Shown: piece after piece, positions 765 to 35,716 of the stretch
Layout of the letters: each line of letters opens with the position of its first letter
Position numbering within the stretch: position 1 is the stretch's first letter
Assembly: GCA_040388535.1 (NCBI GenBank)
Contig: JAZKBR010000002.1
Coordinates: 213,083-252,529, forward strand
Direction of reading: 5' to 3'
DNA length: 39,447 nt
DNA from: Gemmatimonadota bacterium
Lineage (GTDB): Bacteria; Gemmatimonadota; Gemmatimonadetes; Gemmatimonadales; GWC2-71-9
Notes under the pieces: generated by a model
Told to the model about the DNA's origin: nothing
Seen by the model: only the letters and a program-made list of their open reading frames with translations
Databases searched by the model: none
Translations under genes and position numbers: made by a program

Positions 765-3700
765 GTGTTCACCCACCTCCACGTCCACTCCTGGTTCTCC
801 TTCGGACTGGGGACTTCGTCGCCCGACGCACTGGCGCAGGCGGCGGCCCGGCGCGGCTATCGCGCCCTTGCGCTCACCGACACCAATGGCGTCTACGGCG
901 CAGTGGAGTTCCAGCGCGCCTGTGACACCGCGGGCATTCGCCCGATCCTCGGCTGTCATCTCGTCACTCGCGATCACGAAGCCGTTGTTCTTGCCGAAGA
1001 CGCGCGCGGCTGGGCCTCGCTCTGCCGCGCCGCCACCGCCATTCACTGGAATCCCGATCTCGCGCTGAGCGCCCAGCTCGCCGTCGATCGCGCCGGCCTC
1101 GTCGTCCTCACCCGCAACATCGACCTGCTCGAGCGGCTGGTGAAGCTCTCCGGTCCGGCCGGCCTCTACGCCGAGCTGCGCCCCGAACCCGGGCGCCATC
1201 AGGTACTCGCCGCCGCGCAGCGCCTCGGCGTTCCGGCGGTCGTGACGGGCGGCGTGGTCTGTGCCGATGCCGAGGACTGGAATCGGCATCGCCTGCTGCT
1301 CGCAATTCACGGCAACACCACACTCGCGCAGGTCGAGAACGCCTGGCCGCGCGACGCCTGGCTCCGCCCTCCGGCCAATCTCGAGCGGCACTTCCCCGAC
1401 ATTCCCGACGCCTTCACCGCCGCCGACGTTCTCGCCGAGCGCTGCCAGTATCGCATCCCCATTGGTCGCACCATCGCGCCGCGCGCCTCCGACACCGACG
1501 ACGCCCTCGCGAAGCTGCGCGCCCAGGCCTACGACGGCGCCGTCCGTCGCTATGGCACCATCGCGCCGGTCACCCGCGATCGACTCGAGCACGAGCTCGG
1601 CATCATCGGGATGAAGGGATTTGCCGACTACTTCCTGGTGGTCCAGGACATCGTGCGGCACGGCCCCACGCACTGTGGTCGCGGATCGGTCGCGAATTCG
1701 GTGGTCTCATACTGTCTCGGGATCACGCACGTGGAGCCGCTCGGCGCCGGGTTGTTGTTCGAGCGCTTCCTCAATCCGTCACGGAAAGATCCGCCCGACA
1801 TCGACCTCGATTTCCCCTGGGACGAACGCGACCAGATTCTCGCGTGGACCTTTCGCAAGTATCCGCTCCCGCGTGCCGCGATGGTGGCCAATCACAACTG
1901 CCTGCGCCTCGCGGGTGCGCTGCGCGAAGTGGCCAAGGTGCACGGCCGACCGGCCGCCGAAATTCGCGAGATCACCCGGCGTATACCGATGTACACCGAA
2001 GGGAGTGCCAGCGAGATCATCGGCAGCCACGCGAACTTCCGCGACCTGCGGTTGCCCAAGGTGTGGCAGGAGCTCGCGGCCGTGGCGGAGACCCTGGTCG
2101 GCACGCCGCGCCACCTCTCGCTGCATCCGGGAGGCGTGGTCATCGTACCGCACGCCCTCACCGACGTGGTGCCGATCGAGCGCGCGGCCAAGCAGCTCGA
2201 TGGTCATCCCGATCTCACCGTGCCGGTCATCCAGTTCGAAAAGGATGGTGCCGAAGATGCCGGGCTGGTGAAGATCGACCTCCTCGGCAATCGCTCGCTC
2301 GCGGTGATTCGTGATGCCATCGCGATGGTGCACAGCAACACCGGCGTGCAACTCGACTACACCTCGCAGCAGGCCGGCGACGATCCGGCCACCCGCCGCG
2401 CCTTCCGCACCGGCGAAACCCTGGGCGTCTTCTACACCGAATCACCGGCGAGCAGAATCCTCAACCTCAAGTCGCGCGCCGACACCTTCGACCTGCTGGT
2501 GCTCAACACCAGCATCATCCGGCCGGCCTCCAACCGCTTCATCCGCATCTATCTCGAACGGCTGCACGGCAAGCCATACGAACCGCTGCACCCATCCCTG
2601 GGCGAGACGCTGGCCGAAACGTTCGGCGTCATGGTCTACCAGGAAGACGTGGTGAATGTGTCGCACGCCTTTGCCGGCCTCTCGTGGGCCACCGCCGATG
2701 GCCTGCGCAAGGCGCTCTCCAAGAAGCGCCCCGGCAAGCTGCTGGCCGCCTACTTCGACGAGTTCGTGGTGGGTGCGAAGGCGCGTGGCCGTGATGACGC
2801 CAGCATCGCCACGGTGTGGCAGATGATCCTCTCCTTTGCCGGCTATTCGTTCTGCAAGGGGCACTCGTGCAGCTACATCCAGGTGGCGCAGCAGAGCGCC
2901 TACCTGCGTGCCAATCACCCGGCCGAATTCATTGCGGCAGTGCTCGCGAACGGTGGCGGTTTCTATCATCCCTTTGCCTACGTGGCCGAAGCACGGCGAA
3001 TGAACGTCGTCATCCTGCCGCCCGACGTGAACGAGAGCGAGTGGAACTGCACCGGGTGCAATGGGGCGATGCGCGTTGGGTTCCAGTTCGTCAAGGGACT
3101 CAGCAGTGCCGGCGCCACGCAGTTGCTCGCCGAACGCCAGGGCAATGGCCCGTTCCGCGATCTGGCGGATTTGCGCCGGCGCACCGCGCTCAGCGCCGAT
3201 GACATCCGCCTGCTCATCAAGGTCGGTGCCTGCGACACCCTCGATGGCGGACTCAATCGCCCCCAGCTGCTCTGGGCGCTCGACACCGAAGCGCGCGTCG
3301 GCCAGCACACGCCCGTGGCCCGCAGCAGCGGCGGCCTGCTCACCGAACACCGCCCGCTTCCTGCCCTCCGCGATTACGACGATGTCCGCAAGCGTCGTGA
3401 TGCCTGGGCACTCCTCGGCTTCTGTCTCGATGCCCATCCGATGACGCTGCACGCCGAGGCGCTCACCCGCTTCCGATTGGTGCGCAGCACCGACCTGGCA
3501 CAGCACGTCGGCAAGCAGGTGCTGATGGCGGGAATGTTCACCACTGGCAAGCCGGTGCGGACCATCAAGGAAGAGCCGATGCAGTTCGCCACCTTCGACG
3601 ATGGTCACGGCCTCGTGGAATGCGTACTCTTTCCCGATGTCTATCGCGAACGCGCCCACGTCCTCTTCGACCAGGGGCCCTTTCTCTTCCGGGGAGTGGT

Positions 3701-8934: not shown

Positions 8935-11280
8935 ATGCTCATCCTCACGCTCGCCACGCTGTCTGCTGTGCTGCAAGGTGGTCCCACCGATCACATCGCC
9001 TCCGCCACCGGGCGCTCCTATTCGGGCCGGCGTGGCGAAACCACCGTGCAGGCACCGCGGCTTGCCGCGAAGCCGGTGATCGATGGTGTACTCGATGAGC
9101 CGATGTGGCGCGAGGCGGCCGTCCTCACCGATTTCTCCCAGTACAAGCCGGTGGACGGCGTGCCCGCAGCGGATTCCACGCAGGTACTGATCTGGTATTC
9201 GCCCACGGCACTCTTCATCGGTGTCCGGGCGTACGATGCGTCCGGCGCGGTGCAAGCCACGCTGGCGAACCGCGATCAGATCTTCACGGATGACAATATC
9301 CAGGTCTTTCTCTCGACCTTCAACGACAAGCGACAAGCATCCTTCTTCGCCGTCAATCCACTCGGCATTCAGGCCGACGGCGCGCTGAATGAAGGTGGTG
9401 GCGGCAAGGACGCCGTCGATCTCTCACAGGACTTCGTCTGGCAATCCAAGGGACGAGTGACCGCCGACGGCTACGAGGTGGAACTGCGGATTCCGTTCAA
9501 GAGCCTTCGCTCACAGCAGGCGAAGACACAGACCTGGGGCATCAACGTGGTCCGTGGCGTCCCGCGCACCGCGCAGCAGCATTCCTGGATGCCGCTGAAG
9601 ATCGGGGCCTCTTCGCTACTGTCGCAGTCAGGCCGCCTTGAGGGCCTGACCGACCTCGAAACCGGACACGTCCTCGACATTCTGCCCACAGTCACCTACA
9701 GCGTCGACGGCGCCCGTAGCGCCAGGACTGGCAAGTGGGACTATGACGCGAACCGGGCCGAATTCGGGGGCAATGTTCGCTACGGACTCAGCCGCAACCT
9801 GACACTCAACGCCACCGTCAATCCCGATTTCTCCCAGGTGGAAAGCGACGTCTCGCAATTCACACTCGACCCGCGCGAGGCGGTCTTCTTTCCAGAGAAA
9901 CGGCCATTCTTTCTCGATGGCATCGAGCAGTTCGACGCGCCCAGCAACCTGATCTACACCCGGCGAATCGTGCAGCCGCTCGTCGCCGCCAAGCTGACAG
10001 GCAAGGTCAGCGGAACCCAGATCGGTGTGCTCGCGGCCGTCGACGACACGATCGCCTCCGCCACGGGCGATCACCCGCTCTTCGGCATCGTGCGCGCTTC
10101 CCACGATCTCGGGCCCGGCTCACGTCTCGGTGCGTTGTGGACCGAGCAGCATGATGGCGACAACTTCAACCGGGTCTACGGCGCCGATGGCCGGGTCGTG
10201 CTCAACAAGATCCACTCGTTCACCTTTGCCGGCGCGATGTCCCGCACGGAACGCAACGGCGTCAGCACCTCAGGGCCGATCTGGAGTGCGGCCTATCGTC
10301 TTGGCAAGCGCTCGTTCCGGACGGCCTACACCATCAATGCCATCAGCCCCGACTTCCGCTCCAATGCCGGCTTCATCAGCCGGCCGGGGATCGTGAATGC
10401 CAACATTGCGCACGCCTATGTCTGGCTTCGGCCGAAGAAGACCCTCGAGGTGCTCACGGGCCAGATCGTCCTCTTCGGACAGTGGCGGTATGACGACTTC
10501 ATTCATGGTGGCGAGATCCAGAACCGGTTGCTCCACTTCGATTTCACCGGCCATCTGCGCAGCGGCTGGGACCTCAACGCGTCGGTCTACGACGAAAGCT
10601 TCGGCTACGACCCGTCGATCTTCACGCGGTATGCGCTGCAGAACCCCGATGGATCGATCGCCCCGTGGGTCGCCCCGGGCCGTATCCCCAATCGCGACTA
10701 TGTCGCCGGTTTCAGCTCGCCGAACTACAAGCATCTGCAGGTCAACGGCTCGCTGCTCTGGGGACACGACGAGAACTTTCCCGAATGGGCCTCCGGTAAC
10801 ATCATCGTTGGCACGCTCGGCCTCACGGTCCGGCCCACGAGCCAGCTGCGGATGAATCTCTCCTACAATCATCAGCAGGTGAACCGACGCACCGACGGTT
10901 CGCGCGTGCTGGTGCAAGGGGTGCCGCGCGCGCGGATCGAATATCAGCTCTCGCGCGCATTCCAGGTCAGGGTGGTCTCGGAGTATGCGTTCGAGTCCCG
11001 CGATGCCCTCCGCGACGATTCGCGCACCAACCTGCCGATCGTGATCCGGCAGTCGAACGGTCAGTACGCGCCGGCCGCGGGCTACTCGAATGGTTCGCTG
11101 ACCAGCAACCTGCTCTTCAGCTACTTCCCGAACCCCGGCACGGTGATGTATGTCGGCTACGGAACCAACTCGCTGCGACCGAACGACGACCTGCGAGACA
11201 AGCTCGGCCGCCAGAGCGACGGCTTCTTCGTGAAACTGTCGTATCTCTTCCGCCCAGGTGGCGAACGCCCGACCGGTTGA
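8935..11280 (+). CDS. DUF5916 outer-membrane protein with N-terminal CBM9-like domain
   Basis: 781 residues from ATG 8935, preceded by AGGA at 8926-8929. After a short signal peptide, residues about 40-220 form a carbohydrate-binding family 9-like beta sandwich (KPVIDGVLDEPMWREA, TDDNIQVFLSTFNDKR, GYEVELRIPFKSL). The rest is the DUF5916 region, including the hallmark NATVNPDFSQVESD and FFPEKRPFFLDG. It ends in alternating aromatic strands (FFVKLSYLFRPG) that look like an outer-membrane beta barrel. In these bacteria the family is found near surface peptidases and transporters and has no proven function. A role in binding or passing sugars or peptides at the outer membrane is an inference. A strong bidirectional hairpin follows at 11304-11335. 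Confidence 0.87.
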   Translation: MLILTLATLSAVLQGGPTDHIASATGRSYSGRRGETTVQAPRLAAKPVIDGVLDEPMWREAAVLTDFSQYKPVDGVPAADSTQVLIWYSPTALFIGVRAYDASGAVQATLANRDQIFTDDNIQVFLSTFNDKRQASFFAVNPLGIQADGALNEGGGGKDAVDLSQDFVWQSKGRVTADGYEVELRIPFKSLRSQQAKTQTWGINVVRGVPRTAQQHSWMPLKIGASSLLSQSGRLEGLTDLETGHVLDILPTVTYSVDGARSARTGKWDYDANRAEFGGNVRYGLSRNLTLNATVNPDFSQVESDVSQFTLDPREAVFFPEKRPFFLDGIEQFDAPSNLIYTRRIVQPLVAAKLTGKVSGTQIGVLAAVDDTIASATGDHPLFGIVRASHDLGPGSRLGALWTEQHDGDNFNRVYGADGRVVLNKIHSFTFAGAMSRTERNGVSTSGPIWSAAYRLGKRSFRTAYTINAISPDFRSNAGFISRPGIVNANIAHAYVWLRPKKTLEVLTGQIVLFGQWRYDDFIHGGEIQNRLLHFDFTGHLRSGWDLNASVYDESFGYDPSIFTRYALQNPDGSIAPWVAPGRIPNRDYVAGFSSPNYKHLQVNGSLLWGHDENFPEWASGNIIVGTLGLTVRPTSQLRMNLSYNHQQVNRRTDGSRVLVQGVPRARIEYQLSRAFQVRVVSEYAFESRDALRDDSRTNLPIVIRQSNGQYAPAAGYSNGSLTSNLLFSYFPNPGTVMYVGYGTNSLRPNDDLRDKLGRQSDGFFVKLSYLFRPGGERPTG

Positions 11281-11360: not shown

Positions 11361-12704
11361 TTACCGGTCTTTCATGTCACCAAGCTTTTCAGCGGCAACA
11401 CGCCGAATCTCCGGATCCTTGTCGTCGAGCGCCCGCGTCAGCCCGGGCATCACCGCCGAGGTGCCGATCTCGCCGAGCCCTTCCACGGCAGCCAGACGCA
11501 CTTCGCGATCGCCGTCAGTGAGCAACCCGACGAGCGCCGATGTAGTCGTCGGGTCGGCGATCCGGCCAAGTGCCTGCGCCACCTGGCGCCGGAACTCGGC
11601 GTCACGCGAGGAGAGGGCCTGGACCAGTTCCGCAGGCGCCGTATGCAGTTCGTCGAGATTGCCGATCGCCTCCACGGCCGCCGCGCGCACATCCTGATCC
11701 TTGTCGGAGAGCGCCTTCGCCAGTACACCGGCCGAGTGCGCCGAGCTCAACTGTCCCAGCGCCTGGGCGCTCGCGCGGCGAACGTCCGCATCGCTGTCGC
11801 GCTCAAGAACCCGTTCCAGTGCGTTCACTGCCGTGGCGTCTTCCACCTGGCCCAGCGCATCGGCGGCAGCAGCCCTCACCGATGCGACCTGGTCACCGAG
11901 TGCCTCGATCAGTGCCGCCGTGGAGCTCTTGCTTTCGATCTGCCCGAGCGCTTCGGCTGCAATGGTGCGCAATACCGGGTCACCGTCGCGTAGGGCGGGG
12001 AGCACATCGCCTACCGAGGCGGGATCCTCGATCTGCCCGAGCGCCCAGACCGCTGCGACACGAAGCCGCCCGTTGCCGGACCGCGCGATCCGACCGAGCA
12101 CGGGCGCAGAGGCCTTGTCCTCGATCTGTCCCAGCGCCCACGCTGCCATCGTGGCCACGGCCGGCGTGCGATCGCCGAGTGAATGTTCGAGCGGTAGCCG
12201 CAATTCGGGACGTTCATCTTCGCCGATTGCGAGCGCGGCACCCTCACGAATCCGTGGTGAGGCGTCCTCAAGCAGAGATGCGAGCCGTGATGTCGGAACA
12301 GTGCTGCGCCCGAGCAACTTGGCGGACACCCGGCGGACGCAAGGATCGTCAGCGGCGAGCCGGGATACGAGCAGCGTGATCGCACGTGGATCGCTGATGG
12401 TGCCACTCAGTGAATCCTTGGCGGACTGCATGGTCGCCGCAGCGTCAGCGAGGCGGCCGAGGCCGGCGCTCGAGCCGCTCGACCAGAAATTGCCAAGCTG
12501 ATCGCCAATCAACTCGCAGACCACTGGATCGGTCTTGCCCAACGCGTCGAGCAGTGTTGCCACCCGGCCCGAATCAGCGCCCGGTCGATCATTGTGGTGG
12601 CCGATGTGCACCGAGATCGGCGCAACCGGAGCAAGGGTCACCACGGCGGCAGCAGCACCTCCGCCCGCCAGCACAGCCCCCGCGACGAGTGCGAGCGCAC
12701 GCAT
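11361..12704 (-). CDS. exported HEAT-repeat protein
   Basis: 447 residues. ATG at 12704 shares its A with the TGA stop of the M56 gene (TGATG), so translation is coupled; a GTG one codon earlier is the alternative. The N terminus (MRALALVAGAVLAGGGAAAAVV) is a signal peptide or membrane anchor. From about residue 100 the protein is about eleven HEAT repeats of roughly 31 residues with a clear periodic signature (AAAxALGQIED). Such alpha-solenoids are protein-binding scaffolds. As the last gene of the BlaI/M56-HEAT operon, with repeats resembling those of the M56 partner, it is most simply a periplasmic partner of that protease, but this is inference. No catalytic motif is visible. Confidence 0.85.
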   Translation of the reverse strand: MRALALVAGAVLAGGGAAAAVVTLAPVAPISVHIGHHNDRPGADSGRVATLLDALGKTDPVVCELIGDQLGNFWSSGSSAGLGRLADAAATMQSAKDSLSGTISDPRAITLLVSRLAADDPCVRRVSAKLLGRSTVPTSRLASLLEDASPRIREGAALAIGEDERPELRLPLEHSLGDRTPAVATMAAWALGQIEDKASAPVLGRIARSGNGRLRVAAVWALGQIEDPASVGDVLPALRDGDPVLRTIAAEALGQIESKSSTAALIEALGDQVASVRAAAADALGQVEDATAVNALERVLERDSDADVRRASAQALGQLSSAHSAGVLAKALSDKDQDVRAAAVEAIGNLDELHTAPAELVQALSSRDAEFRRQVAQALGRIADPTTTSALVGLLTDGDREVRLAAVEGLGEIGTSAVMPGLTRALDDKDPEIRRVAAEKLGDMKDR

Positions 12705-14851
12705 CACGGCCGCTCCCCGAGGGCCTCCGCCGCACGCCTCCGGACCTTGGCATCGGAGGAATTGAGCCCGGCACGCAGGGCATCACGCGCCGACTGATCG
12801 GCCATGTTGCTGAGCGCGTCGATCGCCCGTTCACGCACATCGCCATTGCTGTCCTGCATCAGCTTCTGCAGCGCCGGCACCAGCGCCACGATTGAACGCT
12901 CGCCCACAAGCCCAGCCGCCGATGCACGCACTTCGGAGTTGCTGTCATTGAGCAGGGTGCGCAAGGTGGTCTCGGGGATCGCACCCTTGAGTTCGTTGAG
13001 GGTCTCGAGCGCCTGGCGGCGTACCTCGGGATTGCCGTCGCCCAGGGCCGGCAGCACGGCACTCGCCGCCGACGGATCATTCAGTTCGCCGAGTGCTTCA
13101 ATCGCGGCCTGACGCACATCGACCGACTGGTCACGAATCAGCTTCGCCAGCGCCGCGCTGCTGGAGCGGTCGCCGATCCGACCGAGCAGATGAGCTGCTT
13201 CGTGGCGAACGTCCGCGTCGGGGTCATCGAGAAGGCGTGCGATGGGCGCCGCAGGAACACCCTTCTCGAAGTTGCCGAGCGCATCGAGGGCCTGCTGCTT
13301 CACCTCGGCATTCGGATCACTCAGCAACGCCGTGAGCGGGCCGATGGCGCGGGGATCCTCGAACTGCGCCAGCGCGTCTGCCGCAGCGGCGCGCACCTTG
13401 GTGTCGTCGTCCTTGAGCGCGACGATCAAACCCGGCACCGCGCGCGCGTCCTCGAGTCGGCCGAGTGACCGTGCCGCGGCGGCACGAACCTGCGCGTCGT
13501 CATCCTTGAGTCGCCCGATGAGTGCGTTGACCACCGTCGTATCTGCCGGCGTCTTATCACCACTGAGACCGACATCGATCCGGCCGACGCGCGCCGCGAT
13601 CACACCGGCGTCGATGCGGGTGCGGGCGGCGGTGCGTGCGGCGTCGCGGCCCGCGAGACGGGCGATCCTGGCCATCGCGGCCGCAGTGAAGCTGCGCGGA
13701 TGCCCCGGCCCTTCCTCGCCCGCTTGCTGCTGCTCTTCCGTCGAAACAGCGCCGTCGAGCTTGGCCTGACGGACCCGACCCGACACGCCGGGTGCAATCG
13801 CGATGGTTGCGCCCAACGCCAGCAAGGCCACTACTGCTGCGCCGCGGCGCGGCGTCGGGGCGCCGGGAGTGCCGCCCTCGATGAGTCGTGAAATCCGGGA
13901 TACCAGCATTGATCGTTGCTCCGCCATGCCCGCAACGGGCACGCCAAGGGGTGAGGCCTGAATCCATTCCGCGACCTTTGCGAGGCAGCGCGCCAGCGGA
14001 ATACCCGAACCGGTGCGGCGCGCCGCCCAGTCGTCACAGAGGTATTCGGCCGCATTCTGCATTTCGCGCCGAGCGAGATGGTTGAGAGGCTGGAAGAAGA
14101 AGAGACGTTCAATCAGCGACGCGGTATCGAGCCAGATCGGATCGCGGCGTGACAGGTGTGCCAGCTCATGCGCGAGCATGCTGCGCTGCAGTTCGGGGTG
14201 CAGATCGGTGAGCGCGGCCTCGGGCAGGCAGATTTCGCCGAGGCCGAGCGCGACCGGTGAGGAGATCGTCCGCGCCGTGGTGAGCACCACCCGCCGGCGA
14301 TAGCCCACATCCCGACGGAGGGCATCGAGCATTTGCACGATCGGACCATCGCTGAGCGGCTGACGCTCCGTCAGGCGACCTACGAGAATCAGGCGTCGCG
14401 CCGCATAGCCAATGGCGAGCAGGAGCGCCACGGCCGCCCAGATCCCCACGAGCAGCGCGGCGGCCGAGAGCCGCGACCGGCTCGGCGTGTTGACAGGCGT
14501 AGATGCATCTGGTGCGAGACCGACCTGCGGTTGCGCCGGTGCAGGATCGGCAACCGGCAGCGGCTTGACAGTGCCGAGGGTTTTCACCTCGGGCGCATCC
14601 AGGCCAGCCTTCGTCGGGGCGGCCTGGGTGACGCTCGGCAACGTCAATGTGCCATTCGGCCGGACGTCGAGGCGCAGCTGTATGCTGGCGGTCAGGAGCC
14701 CGCCGAGAATGGCGGCCTTCCAGAGAATGTCACTGGTCGCCGGGTCGCGCCGGAAACGGGTCACCGCCCAGGCGAGACCGAGCAGTACTGTGCTGTGAAT
14801 GGCATAGGTCAGCAGCCAGGCGAGCACGGTGGAGGGAAGAGTGCTGGTCAT
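12704..14851 (-). CDS. M56 (BlaR1-type) membrane metalloprotease with C-terminal HEAT repeats
   Basis: 715 residues. The start ATG at 14851 overlaps the blaI stop as TGATG. There are three N-terminal membrane helices (about 8-28, 40-58, 132-152). The M56 domain follows: SSPVALGLGEICLP, the zinc motif HELAH at 228-232, and EYLCDDWA with Glu269 as likely third ligand. A fourth helix lies at about 330-350 (AVVALLALGATIAIAP). From about residue 439 to the end there are nine HEAT repeats (VRAAAARSLGRLED type). In BlaR1/MecR1 the matching C-terminal part is a penicillin-binding sensor outside the membrane; here HEAT repeats replace it. By family analogy the protease is activated by an external signal and inactivates the BlaI repressor encoded next to it. 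The signal is unknown, and beta-lactam sensing is not supported. Confidence 0.88.
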   Translation of the reverse strand: MTSTLPSTVLAWLLTYAIHSTVLLGLAWAVTRFRRDPATSDILWKAAILGGLLTASIQLRLDVRPNGTLTLPSVTQAAPTKAGLDAPEVKTLGTVKPLPVADPAPAQPQVGLAPDASTPVNTPSRSRLSAAALLVGIWAAVALLLAIGYAARRLILVGRLTERQPLSDGPIVQMLDALRRDVGYRRRVVLTTARTISSPVALGLGEICLPEAALTDLHPELQRSMLAHELAHLSRRDPIWLDTASLIERLFFFQPLNHLARREMQNAAEYLCDDWAARRTGSGIPLARCLAKVAEWIQASPLGVPVAGMAEQRSMLVSRISRLIEGGTPGAPTPRRGAAVVALLALGATIAIAPGVSGRVRQAKLDGAVSTEEQQQAGEEGPGHPRSFTAAAMARIARLAGRDAARTAARTRIDAGVIAARVGRIDVGLSGDKTPADTTVVNALIGRLKDDDAQVRAAAARSLGRLEDARAVPGLIVALKDDDTKVRAAAADALAQFEDPRAIGPLTALLSDPNAEVKQQALDALGNFEKGVPAAPIARLLDDPDADVRHEAAHLLGRIGDRSSSAALAKLIRDQSVDVRQAAIEALGELNDPSAASAVLPALGDGNPEVRRQALETLNELKGAIPETTLRTLLNDSNSEVRASAAGLVGERSIVALVPALQKLMQDSNGDVRERAIDALSNMADQSARDALRAGLNSSDAKVRRRAAEALGERP

Positions 14852-15240
14852 CACAGGGCTCCCTTGGTGCGGTCCACTTCTTCGATCATGCGGCGGACGC
14901 GGTCGAGATCGCCGGGCGACATGTCCTGGGCCTTGAGCAGATGGCTCACCAGCGCCGGGACGTCGCCGTTGAAGAGCCGCTCGGTCAACTCCTCGACCAT
15001 GGAGACCTGGACATCCGCCTCGGTCACCAGGGCACGATAGAGGTATTGGCGGTCATTGATTCGACGCGCCAGGACGCCCCGGCGTTGCAATCTGGACAGG
15101 AGGGTGGCCACGGTGGTCTGCGCCAGCCCCCGCTCGGCGTGAAGCGCCTCCCAGATATCGATCACCGTGAGCTCCCCGCGAGTCCACAGCAATCGCAGGA
15201 TGGCGATCTGGAGGTCGGTCAGTTGATGACGTTCGTTCAT
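14851..15240 (-). CDS. blaI: BlaI/MecI-family transcriptional repressor
   Basis: 129 residues, ATG at 15240. The N-terminal winged helix is typical: LTDLQIAILRLLWTRGELTVIDIWEAL, then TTVATLLSRLQRRGVLARR with the beta wing RQYLYRALV. The C-terminal half is the dimerisation helix bundle that the partner protease cuts in the classical system. It is the first gene of a three-gene operon with an M56 protease, as in bla and mec loci. Two BlaI-type palindromes lie 16-45 bp upstream of its start, so self-repression is expected. The nearby divergent YceI-like gene could share the control. Confidence 0.93.
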   Translation of the reverse strand: MNERHQLTDLQIAILRLLWTRGELTVIDIWEALHAERGLAQTTVATLLSRLQRRGVLARRINDRQYLYRALVTEADVQVSMVEELTERLFNGDVPALVSHLLKAQDMSPGDLDRVRRMIEEVDRTKGAL

Positions 15241-15256
15241 CGGGTCCCCAGTGGTT

Positions 15257-15274
15257 GATCTACAGGTGTAGATC
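15257..15274. promoter_or_regulatory. BlaI-type operator 1 (perfect palindrome)
   Basis: GATCTACAGGTGTAGATC is a perfect 8+2+8 inverted repeat. Its core, TACA-N2-TGTA, matches the operator type known for BlaI/MecI repressors. It lies 16 bp upstream of the blaI start and about 118 bp upstream of the divergent YceI-like gene. Confidence 0.8.
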
Positions 15275-15285
15275 TACAGCCGTAG
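15274..15285. promoter_or_regulatory. BlaI-type operator 2 (imperfect)
   Basis: CTACAGCCGTAG has the same core as operator 1 with one mismatch in the right arm. The two centres are 14 bp apart, so two repressor dimers could bind side by side. Tandem operators are also known in bla and mec control regions. Confidence 0.6.
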
Positions 15286-15391
15286 TACGGCCCTGTCAAC
15301 TCCCGCCAACTTCCGACCGGTTGATCTCGTACCAGAGGGGACAATTCGGCCGCAAATCCGGCCTGCAGCCTGACCTGGTGAGGAGTACTCG

Positions 15392-16078
15392 ATGACCCGC
15401 AGGACCGCCCGATTCGCTGTCGCCCTGCTCCTGATCCTTCCCGTCTCGATCTCGGCCCAGACCAGGGCCGGCACGAAGTCCGTTTCCTCGAAGAAGTCCG
15501 CCGCCGCAAAGCCCGTGGCAGCGCCGCCCCTGCGATTCAATCTGGGCGCCACTGGCAACGAGGCGCGCTATCGCGTGCGCGAGCTGCTGGCGGCCTCGAC
15601 CATCGAAAATGATGCGGTCGGCAGTACCACCTCACTGACCGGCGCACTCCAGATCGACGCGACGGGCAAGGCCGACACCACCATTTCGCGTTGGGTCGTG
15701 GACCTGACCACACTCAAGAGCGATCGCGCCATGCGCGACCGTTTTCTTCAGCACAACGCACTCGAGATTGCGCGCTTCCCCAAGGCAGAACTGGTGGTGA
15801 CATCGATCAAGGGCCTCCCTGTCACGCTGCCCGCATCGGGCACGCTGACCCTGACCCTGCTCGGCAACTTCACCACGCACGGGGTGACCAAGGCGACGAG
15901 CTGGGACGTGGTCGCCAATGTCGCGGGGGATCACATCAGCGGGACGGCAACGACCCACCTGAAGTTCGCGGAATACAACATGACCCAGCCGCGACTCCCG
16001 GTGGTCGCAAGCGTGGATGACGACATCAAGCTCGAGTACGACTTCCACCTGATCCGCGAGAACTCCGCGAAACCCTGA
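15392..16078 (+). CDS. secreted YceI-like protein
   Basis: 228 residues, ATG 15392 behind GAGGAG. A signal peptide (residues 1-23, ending SISAQ) is followed by a Lys/Ser/Ala-rich linker and a YceI-like lipocalin fold. Diagnostic parts are YRVRELLA, VGSTTSLTGALQID, VVDLTTLKSDRAMRDRFLQ, FPKAELVVTSI, and HGVTKATSWDVVA near the end. YceI proteins bind isoprenoid or other amphiphilic ligands in the periplasm. It is divergent from blaI with the two BlaI operators in between, so it may belong to the same regulon. A strong hairpin follows 27 bp after the stop. Confidence 0.85.
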   Translation: MTRRTARFAVALLLILPVSISAQTRAGTKSVSSKKSAAAKPVAAPPLRFNLGATGNEARYRVRELLAASTIENDAVGSTTSLTGALQIDATGKADTTISRWVVDLTTLKSDRAMRDRFLQHNALEIARFPKAELVVTSIKGLPVTLPASGTLTLTLLGNFTTHGVTKATSWDVVANVAGDHISGTATTHLKFAEYNMTQPRLPVVASVDDDIKLEYDFHLIRENSAKP

Positions 16079-16135: not shown

Positions 16136-16696
16136 TCAGGGCACAAACGCGAGATAGATGGCGAGACAGATCACGATACTCGCCAGCAGTGCGACGACAC
16201 CGAGTCGTCGTCGTCTCGGCAGGCCGATCCACATCAGCAATCCGGTCACCGACCCGATCAACAGCAGGATGGCGGAAGCGTCGAGCACCCAGCTCCACGC
16301 CTTGCCCGAATCCTTGCCGCGATGGAGGTCGTCGAGTCGCAGGAAGAAGCCGCGACGTTCGACACGGATGGTCGCCTTTCCGGAACGCCGGTCGATCTCG
16401 GCTTCAGTATGCCGGCCTGGCCCCTTCATCTCGACTCGCAACGTCTGCGCATCGACATCGAATGTCGTGACAGCGCCAACGGCGCCGTAGTCGGCGCGCA
16501 ACTTCTCGACCACCATCAACTTGTCCGGGCCGCTCAGCAGCGCGAGCGGCAGCTGCCCCTGCGACTCGACCGGCTGCACGCTGTCTGCGCCGAGCCACTC
16601 CTCGTGATTCAGGAGCAGGCCGGTCACCGCGAAAAACAACATCAGCAGCAGGGCGAACATGGTGAGGTAGACGTGAATTGTCCGGCTCACCGCCAT
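16136..16696 (-). CDS. PepSY-associated membrane protein
   Basis: 186 residues from ATG 16696, which has GGAG at good spacing; a GTG at 16720 is possible but poorly placed. The N-terminal helix RTIHVYLTMFALLLMLFFAVTGLLLNHEEW is typical of PepSY-associated membrane proteins. A periplasmic PepSY-like region follows (DKLMVVEKLRADYGAVGAVTTFDVD, TLRVEMKGPGRHTEAEID). Two more helices end the chain (VLDASAILLLIGSVTGLLMWIGLP and VVALLASIVICLAIYLAF). The His in LNHEEW and those in the loops are possible heme or metal ligands, as in related redox proteins. It lies 30 bp downstream of the ApbE-DUF2271 gene on the same strand, which suggests a flavin- or heme-based electron transfer function. Confidence 0.8.
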   Translation of the reverse strand: MAVSRTIHVYLTMFALLLMLFFAVTGLLLNHEEWLGADSVQPVESQGQLPLALLSGPDKLMVVEKLRADYGAVGAVTTFDVDAQTLRVEMKGPGRHTEAEIDRRSGKATIRVERRGFFLRLDDLHRGKDSGKAWSWVLDASAILLLIGSVTGLLMWIGLPRRRRLGVVALLASIVICLAIYLAFVP

Positions 16697-16726
16697 CACA
16701 CTCCGATAGACGCGTGACACTCCCGA

Positions 16727-18202
16727 TTACTTCTTGTAGACGCAGTCGACCTGCGCGCCAGCAAAGGCATCGGTCGCCGTCATCATCCCGGTGGCTGGCG
16801 TGTTCTCGCAAGTGACGACCACACTGCGCAGGCTGTGGGCGCCATTCTCGAAGGCGACCTCGAGCCAGAACATGTACGCGCCGGCGGCGACCGGCGCATT
16901 CGCCTGATCGAGCCCATCCCACTCGATGGTGTACTTGCCTGCGGGGCGGGTCGCCCGCGCGACGGCGTTCACGACCTCGGGCGAAGTGCTCTCGAGTCCC
17001 CACCACTTGCTCAACTCGCGGAGATACTTGGGTCGATCACCCCAGAGGGCCAGTGTCCGAAGATGTTTACCGGTCGTATCGGTGACCCACGCCGCGACGT
17101 AGGGGCGATGCCGGTTGTAGTTGGCCGGCGTCACGTCAACGGCCATCGTGGCTTCCACCGCTCGCGCAGGAGTCATCGAGGCAACGGGTTCCGCTACTTC
17201 GTAGCGCGCGAAGCCGGGCGATCGAATCGTCTCTCCAGCGGCTGTCATCAGCAGACACTCGGCGCCGGGCACCGAGCGCACCAGAGCCAGTCCTTCCACC
17301 GGGTCGAGCACAGAGAGCGAGGTCGCGAGGGCATTGGCGGTGGCGTTGTCCGGGGCGATCACGGTCACACCCAGAACGCGATTCACCGGCAGGCCGGTGC
17401 GCGCGTCGATGATGTGCGAGTAGTGCTGTCCCGCGATGGTGAAGCCACGGGCATAGCCACCGCTCGTGGACACCGCCGCATTACCGACGGTGACTTCCGT
17501 GAGCGGCGGCGCGTTGTCGGCGTGCCGACGCGGATCGGTGACGCCGATGCGCCATGCCGCTGCGCCCGCGGGCGCTTCGCCCCAGGTCTGGATGTCGCCA
17601 CCAATATTGATCAGCCCGCCAACCACGCCGGGGACCTGTTCGCGCACCGCCTGCACTGCGCGGTCGACAATGTATCCCTTGCCCAGCGAGTTGAGATCGA
17701 GCCGGGTCGGCCGCAGCATGCTGATCGCGGCGCTCTGCGGATCGATCTGCCATGCGGGCTGACGCAGCGAGGTGACGAGCGCGGCAAGGACTTCGGGCGA
17801 GGGCGGCTCGCCGCGTTGCTCGGCACCCTTCCACAACGTGGTGAGGACGCCGATCTGCGCGGTGTAGGCCCCGCCGGTTCGGTCGCCCCAGGACTGGTAG
17901 AGGTTCAAGACCTCGCGCAGTTCCGGCGACGCGGCATCGAGTCGGCCCACCCGCTGCAACCGGGAGACCTCGGAGGTCGAGTCCCACGTGCTGGTGAGCA
18001 GGCGTATCCGCTCGATTTCAGCCAGTGCCACCGATTCAGCACGCCTGGCATCGGCCGACGATGTCGTTACGAAGGTGAGGTCAAGCGATGTGCCCAGCAC
18101 CCCTTCCCGGCGAAAGGTGTAGGGAATGGCGTGTGGGGTATGAACAGCTCCCGACACTGCGGGAACGAAGATGAGCGAAGCGAGGAAACCGAGGCGCAGC
18201 AC
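16727..18202 (-). CDS. apbE: FAD:protein FMN transferase (ApbE) fused to DUF2271
   Basis: 491 residues. The GTG start at 18202 has CAGGAG five bases upstream. A signal peptide leads into an ApbE domain: GTSLDLTFV, RLDLNSLGKGYIVDRAV near 170, GGLINIGGDIQTWG near 195 and YSHIIDARTGLPV near 265. ApbE attaches FMN from FAD to Thr or Ser of partner proteins outside the cytoplasm. After about residue 345 comes a DUF2271 domain (RPYVAAWVTDTTGKHLRTLALWGDRPKYL ... KYTIEWDGLDQ). DUF2271, ApbE and PepSY genes are known to cluster; here two of the three are fused. No flavinylation substrate with the usual S/T-GA-S/T site is encoded in the window. Confidence 0.9.
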   Translation of the reverse strand: MLRLGFLASLIFVPAVSGAVHTPHAIPYTFRREGVLGTSLDLTFVTTSSADARRAESVALAEIERIRLLTSTWDSTSEVSRLQRVGRLDAASPELREVLNLYQSWGDRTGGAYTAQIGVLTTLWKGAEQRGEPPSPEVLAALVTSLRQPAWQIDPQSAAISMLRPTRLDLNSLGKGYIVDRAVQAVREQVPGVVGGLINIGGDIQTWGEAPAGAAAWRIGVTDPRRHADNAPPLTEVTVGNAAVSTSGGYARGFTIAGQHYSHIIDARTGLPVNRVLGVTVIAPDNATANALATSLSVLDPVEGLALVRSVPGAECLLMTAAGETIRSPGFARYEVAEPVASMTPARAVEATMAVDVTPANYNRHRPYVAAWVTDTTGKHLRTLALWGDRPKYLRELSKWWGLESTSPEVVNAVARATRPAGKYTIEWDGLDQANAPVAAGAYMFWLEVAFENGAHSLRSVVVTCENTPATGMMTATDAFAGAQVDCVYKK

Positions 18203-34772: not shown

Positions 34773-35716
34773 TCGGCAGGCGGGGCAGTATCGTCACGGC
34801 GATCACGCTCACGCTCGGCTGCGCGGTCGCGATCTATTCCAGCGCAACTCCTCCCACCGCCGATCCGGGCAGCTGGACGATGGTTCCGCCTGTGAATGTC
34901 ATCCTGATCGGGAAGCTCAGCGACCCACGACTCGGGGAAGCAAGCGGTGCTGCCCTCAGCGTCGCGAATCCTGGGCTGTTCTGGACGATCGATGACTCCG
35001 GGAATCCGCCAGATCTGTACGCCGTCGACAGCACCGGCACCCTCAGGGCCGATTTTGCGGTGACCGGCGCGACGAATGTCGACTGGGAAGAGGTCGCCGT
35101 CGGGCCGTGCGGCACCAGCCGCTGCGTCTACATCGCGGACACCGGGGACAACAGCGAGCGCCGACGAGATGTGATCATCTACCGGGTCGTGGAGCCCGTG
35201 GTGACCCCGGACTCCCGCGCTGCCGCAAAGCCGTTGTCGGGGGTCGAATCGATCCGGCTGGTCTACCCGGACCAGCCGCACGATGTCGAGGCGATGGCGG
35301 TGACCAGTGGCGGCGAAATCCTGCTCGTGACCAAGGGGAGGTCCCGCGGCATCCTGGTGTTCGCGATCCCGGCGTCGGCCTGGGGGAGCGGTCGCACGGT
35401 AACCCCGGTGCGTCGCGACTCGTTGCCGATCGTCGCCGCTGGCGGAATGGGCCGTGAGGTCACCGGAATGGCTCTCTCCCCAGACGGCAAGCGCGTGGTG
35501 GTGAGAACCTACCGCGACCTCTATCCATTCACCCTTCGAGGGGATGGCACCTTCGCTCCAATGGGAAAGCCAACCGGGTGCGACATCCTCGGTCGCGAGC
35601 CTCAGGGGGAGGGAATCACTTTCGTGAACGACCGCCAGCTGCTGCTCACGAGCGAGCGCGGGCTGTTCAAGACGGGGACGATGCTGCTACTGGAATGCCC
35701 CCCATTGAACCAGTGA
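34769..35716 (+). CDS. secreted propeller-like protein, unknown function
   Basis: 315 residues, GTG 34769 overlapping the cytochrome stop. The N-terminal hydrophobic segment (IVTAITLTLGCAVAIY) is a signal peptide or anchor. The body has repeated four-strand-like patterns with WTIDDSGNPPDLYAVD, DWEEVAVGPC, VYIADTGDNSERR, VEAMAVTSGGEILLVTKG, GMALSPDGKRVVVRTYRDLYPF and GEGITFVNDRQLLLTSERG, as in beta-propellers of the phytase-like or esterase-like kind. Four Cys residues may form disulfides. Translational coupling to the cytochrome suggests a shared periplasmic role, but none can be named. Confidence 0.72.
   Translation: MIGRRGSIVTAITLTLGCAVAIYSSATPPTADPGSWTMVPPVNVILIGKLSDPRLGEASGAALSVANPGLFWTIDDSGNPPDLYAVDSTGTLRADFAVTGATNVDWEEVAVGPCGTSRCVYIADTGDNSERRRDVIIYRVVEPVVTPDSRAAAKPLSGVESIRLVYPDQPHDVEAMAVTSGGEILLVTKGRSRGILVFAIPASAWGSGRTVTPVRRDSLPIVAAGGMGREVTGMALSPDGKRVVVRTYRDLYPFTLRGDGTFAPMGKPTGCDILGREPQGEGITFVNDRQLLLTSERGLFKTGTMLLLECPPLNQ

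Follow-up and report, generated by a model that had tools for sequence, protein, structure and literature searches.

What does a BlaI-type repressor control, and to what does its membrane protease respond, when the protease carries HEAT repeats in the place of a penicillin sensor? In the classical system BlaR1 cleaves BlaI itself, the cut falling between Asn101 and Phe102, and carries a sensor akin to class D beta-lactamases (PMC9834060). The locus that raises the question lies in the window, by which we mean the whole stretch of 39,447 nucleotides that was analysed.

The locus and its three proteins

Three genes on the minus strand form what we call the triple, and the blaI/M56 and M56/exported HEAT junctions are both TGATG overlaps. 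The features of the locus are as follows.

8935–11280, plus strand: CBM9/DUF5916 gene, convergent with the triple (PF19313, 7e-18; PF06452, 6.3e-5)
11361–12704, minus strand: exported HEAT-repeat protein, 447 aa (HEAT_2, 5.3e-77)
12704–14851, minus strand: M56 metalloprotease with a C-terminal HEAT solenoid, 715 aa (PF05569, 2.4e-21, and HEAT_2)
14851–15240, minus strand: blaI, BlaI/MecI-type repressor, 129 aa (PF03965, 1.2e-28)
15260–15271: putative BlaI operator dyad 1, CTACAGGTGTAG, an exact match to CTACAnnTGTAG
15274–15285: putative BlaI operator dyad 2, CTACAGCCGTAG (one mismatch; spacing to dyad 1, 14 bp)
15271–15299, minus strand: promoter-like TTGACA (15299–15294), 17 bp, TAGATC (15276–15271), recognised from the sequence, with the layout kept in relatives
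15392–16078, plus strand: YceI-like gene, divergent from blaI (PF04264, 2.5e-17)

PF03965 covers the whole of the repressor (profile positions 1–115 of 115), which also matches MecI (1okr) over its full length at 6.9e-11; against the CopY/TcrY model it scores 68 bits, under the cut-off of 121.95. The residues aligned with the Asn101-Phe102 cut site of BlaI/MecI are His100-Leu101 in the window's protein, and Leu101-Leu102, which aligns with the known cut site, is invariant in both lineages of the system described below.

A profile of the M56 part of the second protein matches BlaR1 (8exp/8exs) at 1.6e-6. The alignments of this protein took in 11 and 31 sequences, and HELAH (residues 228–232), Glu269 and Asp273 are invariant in the 31 relatives. 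An AlphaFold model built with 31 sequences (pLDDT 84.6) has membrane helices at residues 4–33, 37–61, 130–162 and 335–352, a gluzincin-like protease region between the third and the fourth, a linker predicted with low confidence (about 363–432) and a HEAT solenoid of nine helix pairs at residues 438–712 (pLDDT mostly 95–98). According to both Pfam and the model, the C-terminal part consists of HEAT repeats only, with no penicillin-binding sensor, and the BlaR1 NCBIfam model covers just residues 113–274 (36.7 bits against a cut-off of 400). As the defining sensor domain was looked for and is absent, the protein is not a BlaR1.

The third gene product and its homologues (an alignment of 26 sequences) begin with a signal-like N-terminus and share a GPDSxxV...DPxxCE...GNxW motif. 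The model of the window's protein is a single solenoid of about 12 helix pairs (pLDDT 89.8). Cys63 and Cys122, about 59 residues apart, are invariant in the exported HEAT proteins of lineage 1, and the pair is kept, 52–62 residues apart, in those of lineage 2, which we infer to fit a periplasmic disulfide.

The HEAT part of the protease is likewise predicted to lie outside the cytoplasm, since a protein with four predicted helices and its protease between the last two would, as in BlaR1, have its C-terminus there. HEAT proteins in general are mostly cytoplasmic, and this, together with the low confidence of the linker, would favour a cytoplasmic or structural tail, with sensing left to the membrane or protease domain. 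We consider such an arrangement very improbable, as it runs against the predicted topology and as the product of the ever-present partner gene is an exported HEAT protein whose cysteine pair is invariant.

The preliminary description of this DNA had anticipated much of this architecture. Coordinates and Pfam matches bear out its three genes joined by TGATG and preceded by two BlaI-type dyads, while the alignments and the model agree with its four helices, HELAH, Glu269 and nine HEAT repeats in the M56 protein. Its exported protein of similar HEAT repeats is recovered in the signal-like N-terminus and the modelled helix pairs of the third product, and its extracytoplasmic placement of the protease's HEAT part draws support from the predicted topology and from the partner's signal peptide and cysteines. 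The BlaR1-like system with a HEAT sensor that it proposed is supported by an M56 profile that matches BlaR1, a BlaI that matches MecI and a C-terminus made of HEAT repeats.

In Foldseek and VIA searches both HEAT proteins match designed alphaRep binders and importin-type solenoids, and the closest solved fold to the ectodomain among the matches listed is alphaRep 4zv6 (Z 29.5, rmsd 2.6, 276 residues, 35% identity). Such matches suggest protein binding; the fold does not name the ligand, and the alphaReps, although alike in fold, are designed and so do not indicate a natural one. BlaR1 is not among the matches listed, an uninformative absence as HEAT matches fill the list.

Operators and conservation of the triple

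The tandem dyads, which are of the TACAnnTGTA type, overlap the -10 of the TTGACA-17-TAGATC promoter reading into blaI, and we interpret them as a putative BlaI operator in the repressor's own promoter. A TACAnnTGTA operator core is known from CopY, TcrY and other BlaI-family repressors. In the 3.7-Mb genome there are two copies of the exact 12-mer, a number not above that for the reversed control. The tandem array (up to two mismatches) is found at two sites of the genome only, here and at positions 35032–35069 of contig C3, and the reversed control gives none, so that chance does not account for the array. These sites front just blaI and one DUF5916 gene; neither a beta-lactamase nor a PBP2a gene lies behind any array site in this genome.

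The YceI-like gene shares its intergenic region with the operator, and it had initially been put forward as a possible target, that is, as the regulated output. The array, however, fits the position of the blaI promoter and lies 107 bp from the start of the YceI-like gene, and no YceI gene was found next to the other triples, nor does any such family recur among their neighbours. We therefore give this proposal very little credence.

A scan of genome contigs with the M56 domain yielded 77 loci, in 32 of which (several lying in the same genomes as the first-found triples) HEAT repeats follow the protease. A HEAT gene, or its beginning where the contig ends, comes after the protease gene in all 32 of these and in none of the other 45, so that the BlaI, M56-HEAT and HEAT triple whose conservation the preliminary description had proposed to check is indeed a conserved unit. 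The records of 29 HEAT-type loci are named as Gemmatimonadota or members of that phylum. The remaining three (L079, L082 and L122) come from genome bins named Myxococcaceae, and represent either transfer between phyla or misnamed bins.

Conservation extends to the BlaI-type operators. Among 32 readable blaI promoters (31 HEAT-type loci and the window), 30 have a pair of CTACAnnTGTAR elements 14 bp apart. The tandem array occurs in 8 of 61 genomes close to that of the window; seven have it once only, at the triple, and the eighth, the window's own, has it both there and before the DUF5916 gene. Further triple-bearing genomes have it in 24 of 26 cases, essentially only at blaI. Extra arrays in G068, G080 and G061 were discounted: one belongs to another copy of blaI where a contig ends, and the other two sites are not convincing.

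Only one of ten genomes of the window's genus, the window's own, carries the lineage 1 triple, which marks it as an accessory cassette, and beyond the triple no neighbourhood is conserved in lineage 1, bar an occasional DUF5916 gene.

A second lineage of BlaI/M56-HEAT/HEAT systems, with an M56 part about 28% identical, is present in a congener (G006) and across the order. In the 21 complete systems compared, the conserved operator is a different one, YTGAWWWWTCAR, usually present twice before blaI, 17 bp apart. All 21 have a further copy in the interval that precedes the exported HEAT gene, and the other 240 kb contain only three matches. In lineage 2 the exported HEAT gene thus has a separate operator, which would be expected of a gene for a secreted effector and which was missed in the first reading.

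DUF5916 genes as putative further targets

Also missed in the first reading was a recurrent further target of both lineages, the DUF5916 genes, which we recognise from gene order and operator sequence. A DUF5916 gene is the fourth gene of the operon in two lineage 1 loci (L034 and L055) and in six of lineage 2 (L051, L202, L208, L212, L213 and L220). The family has 155 matches in about 92 Mb from 20 genomes. By our estimate about 0.5% of loci would be expected to have a DUF5916 gene on the same strand within 6 kb downstream, and 13 of 43 do, a set that is not fully independent and that includes M56 proteins without HEAT repeats.

DUF5916 genes are also found behind distant operators. At the C3 site of the window's genome a DUF5916 gene of 845 aa (L136:7162–9699; PF19313 at 241.5 bits against a cut-off of 22.6) lies behind three dyads in 14-bp phase and a TTGACT promoter similar to that of the triple. 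Operators in trans lie before DUF5916 genes in this genome and in G045, G188 and G148, and before an apparently broken one in G047. Five tandem arrays were found in trans, with DUF5916 behind four of them and a 239-aa unknown protein behind the fifth (in G043). Other genes lie behind several single operator sites, which may be due to chance. In G047 (L242:2627–3138) only a short DUF5916 match (2932–3138) follows the tandem operator, and the gene looks broken; the site in G043 (L241:2567–3327) is a tandem lineage 2 operator ahead of the unknown protein.

As DUF5916 genes lie near both BlaI lineages, whose operators differ, the two lineages appear to converge on one target family, although in lineage 1 only a minority of genomes have a DUF5916 gene adjoining the triple or behind an operator. 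The convergent gene at 8935–11280 belongs to this family and is at most a candidate target. We take the DUF5916 protein to be an outer-membrane barrel; a sequence search found no solved relative.

Five other loci (L231, L232, L233, L236 and L240) have a BlaI-M56 pair in which the M56 protein carries helical repeats of about 37 residues of the type SDGDKxxVL, matching no Pfam family, followed by DUF5916. These may be another receptor type that shares this output.

A proposed relay and its relation to known systems

The reading that we favour, with a probability of about 0.68, is that the HEAT ectodomain senses a ligand in the envelope, whereupon the M56 protease destroys BlaI and sensor, soluble HEAT protein and DUF5916 protein are induced. 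BlaI, judging from the position and conservation of the operator, would repress the operon from the tandem dyads over the -10. The M56 protein is predicted to span the inner membrane so that its protease faces the cytoplasm and its solenoid the periplasm, where the solenoid would bind the ligand, probably a polypeptide. The signal would cross by way of the fourth membrane helix and lead the protease to cleave BlaI. Derepression should raise the amounts of sensor and secreted HEAT paralogue, and in several genomes also that of DUF5916 protein, encoded either by the fourth gene of the operon or behind a distant operator. The soluble protein would be a diffusible effector that likely binds the sensor's ligand and so resets the switch, a role best suggested by the analogy with BlaR1 and its secreted beta-lactamase.

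How the two HEAT parts are related bears on that role. Similarity in lineage 1 is 0.31 between sensors, 0.28 between exported proteins and 0.14 between sensor and exported protein, the last value being too low for a recent duplication or gene conversion, which is ruled out. The similarity matrices of the two sets correlate at 0.86–0.89, and a protein's own partner has a mean similarity rank of 10.7 against 12 expected (permutation p 0.006 and 0.03, in a crude test). The relation is old and only marginally partner-specific. In lineage 2 the sensor and the exported protein share a Pro/Trp/Arg C-terminal tail, e.g. PWPWPxPRPxP, GPWPWPWPEPRPFP (observed in L050, L051 and L201–L223).

CpxP and RseB act as inhibitory partners in other systems, and the exported HEAT protein might comparably be an anti-sensor, docked on the solenoid and keeping it inactive until a ligand in the envelope draws it off by titration. 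This comes near to the pairing of the two HEAT parts that the preliminary description had suggested. Two co-inherited solenoids with parallel histories, the tail shared in lineage 2 and an operator layout that implies their joint induction would all agree with docking; yet the common fold and tail are equally compatible with a common ligand, and own partners are barely more similar in rank than random ones. We regard an anti-sensor as unlikely, and prefer a soluble effector that binds the same ligand as the sensor.

The ligand may itself be connected with the output. Tentatively, and as less likely than not, we suggest that a widespread class of M56 receptors gauges the state of DUF5916 outer-membrane proteins, the soluble and the tethered solenoid binding the same client. 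If so, the client would be the DUF5916 barrel or its substrate, and sensor, periplasmic handler and barrel would form one self-adjusting envelope machine, present in two lineages with different operators.

The BlaR1-BlaI-BlaZ and MecR1-MecI systems of staphylococci and bacilli (PMC9834060, PMC3356374) have the BlaI-type repressor in common with the triple. Further likenesses to BlaR1 and MecR1 are the gluzincin HExxH...E between membrane helices three and four and the extracytoplasmic C-terminal domain, both predicted here, and a probably autoregulated operon; with BlaR1 the triple also shares a secreted effector related to the sensor domain, a HEAT protein here and a beta-lactamase there. The triple differs in that a HEAT solenoid replaces the penicillin-binding domain as sensor, in having DUF5916 genes as putative further targets and in the residues at the BlaI cut site. 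Compared with CopY/TcrY, the TACAnnTGTA core is common, but here the repressor has a membrane protease partner and the operon has no metal-transport gene. The SDGDKxxVL receptors of Gemmatimonadota share BlaI, M56 and the downstream DUF5916 gene, but have their own repeats instead of HEAT and no exported HEAT partner. In the literature searched, coverage of which was incomplete, no description combined BlaR1, M56 and HEAT repeats, and none named DUF5916.

Many soil and water Gemmatimonadota carry the triple, a relay which, on sequence evidence, would control its own secreted relative and putative outer-membrane proteins. A protease-repressor relay known from penicillin resistance would then serve another envelope task, with exchangeable ectodomains, in a poorly studied phylum. 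The predicted regulon has defined operators and ties the uncharacterised DUF5916 family to a signalling pathway, which makes the ligand, the target of the protease and the output each accessible to direct testing. The systems also suggest a rule, as in BlaR1, that receptor ectodomain and secreted effector are related.

Two further observations concern the window and its genome. On the minus strand of the window (16136–18202) a PepSY_TM-like gene adjoins an ApbE-DUF2271 fusion, likely a membrane redox and flavin-transfer pair with no relation to the triple. The genome also has a second BlaI-M56 pair, without HEAT repeats (L052:6896–8886, on contig C2 near 1,253,000), and a different repeat, CTCCTAAGACATTAGGAG, precedes its blaI.
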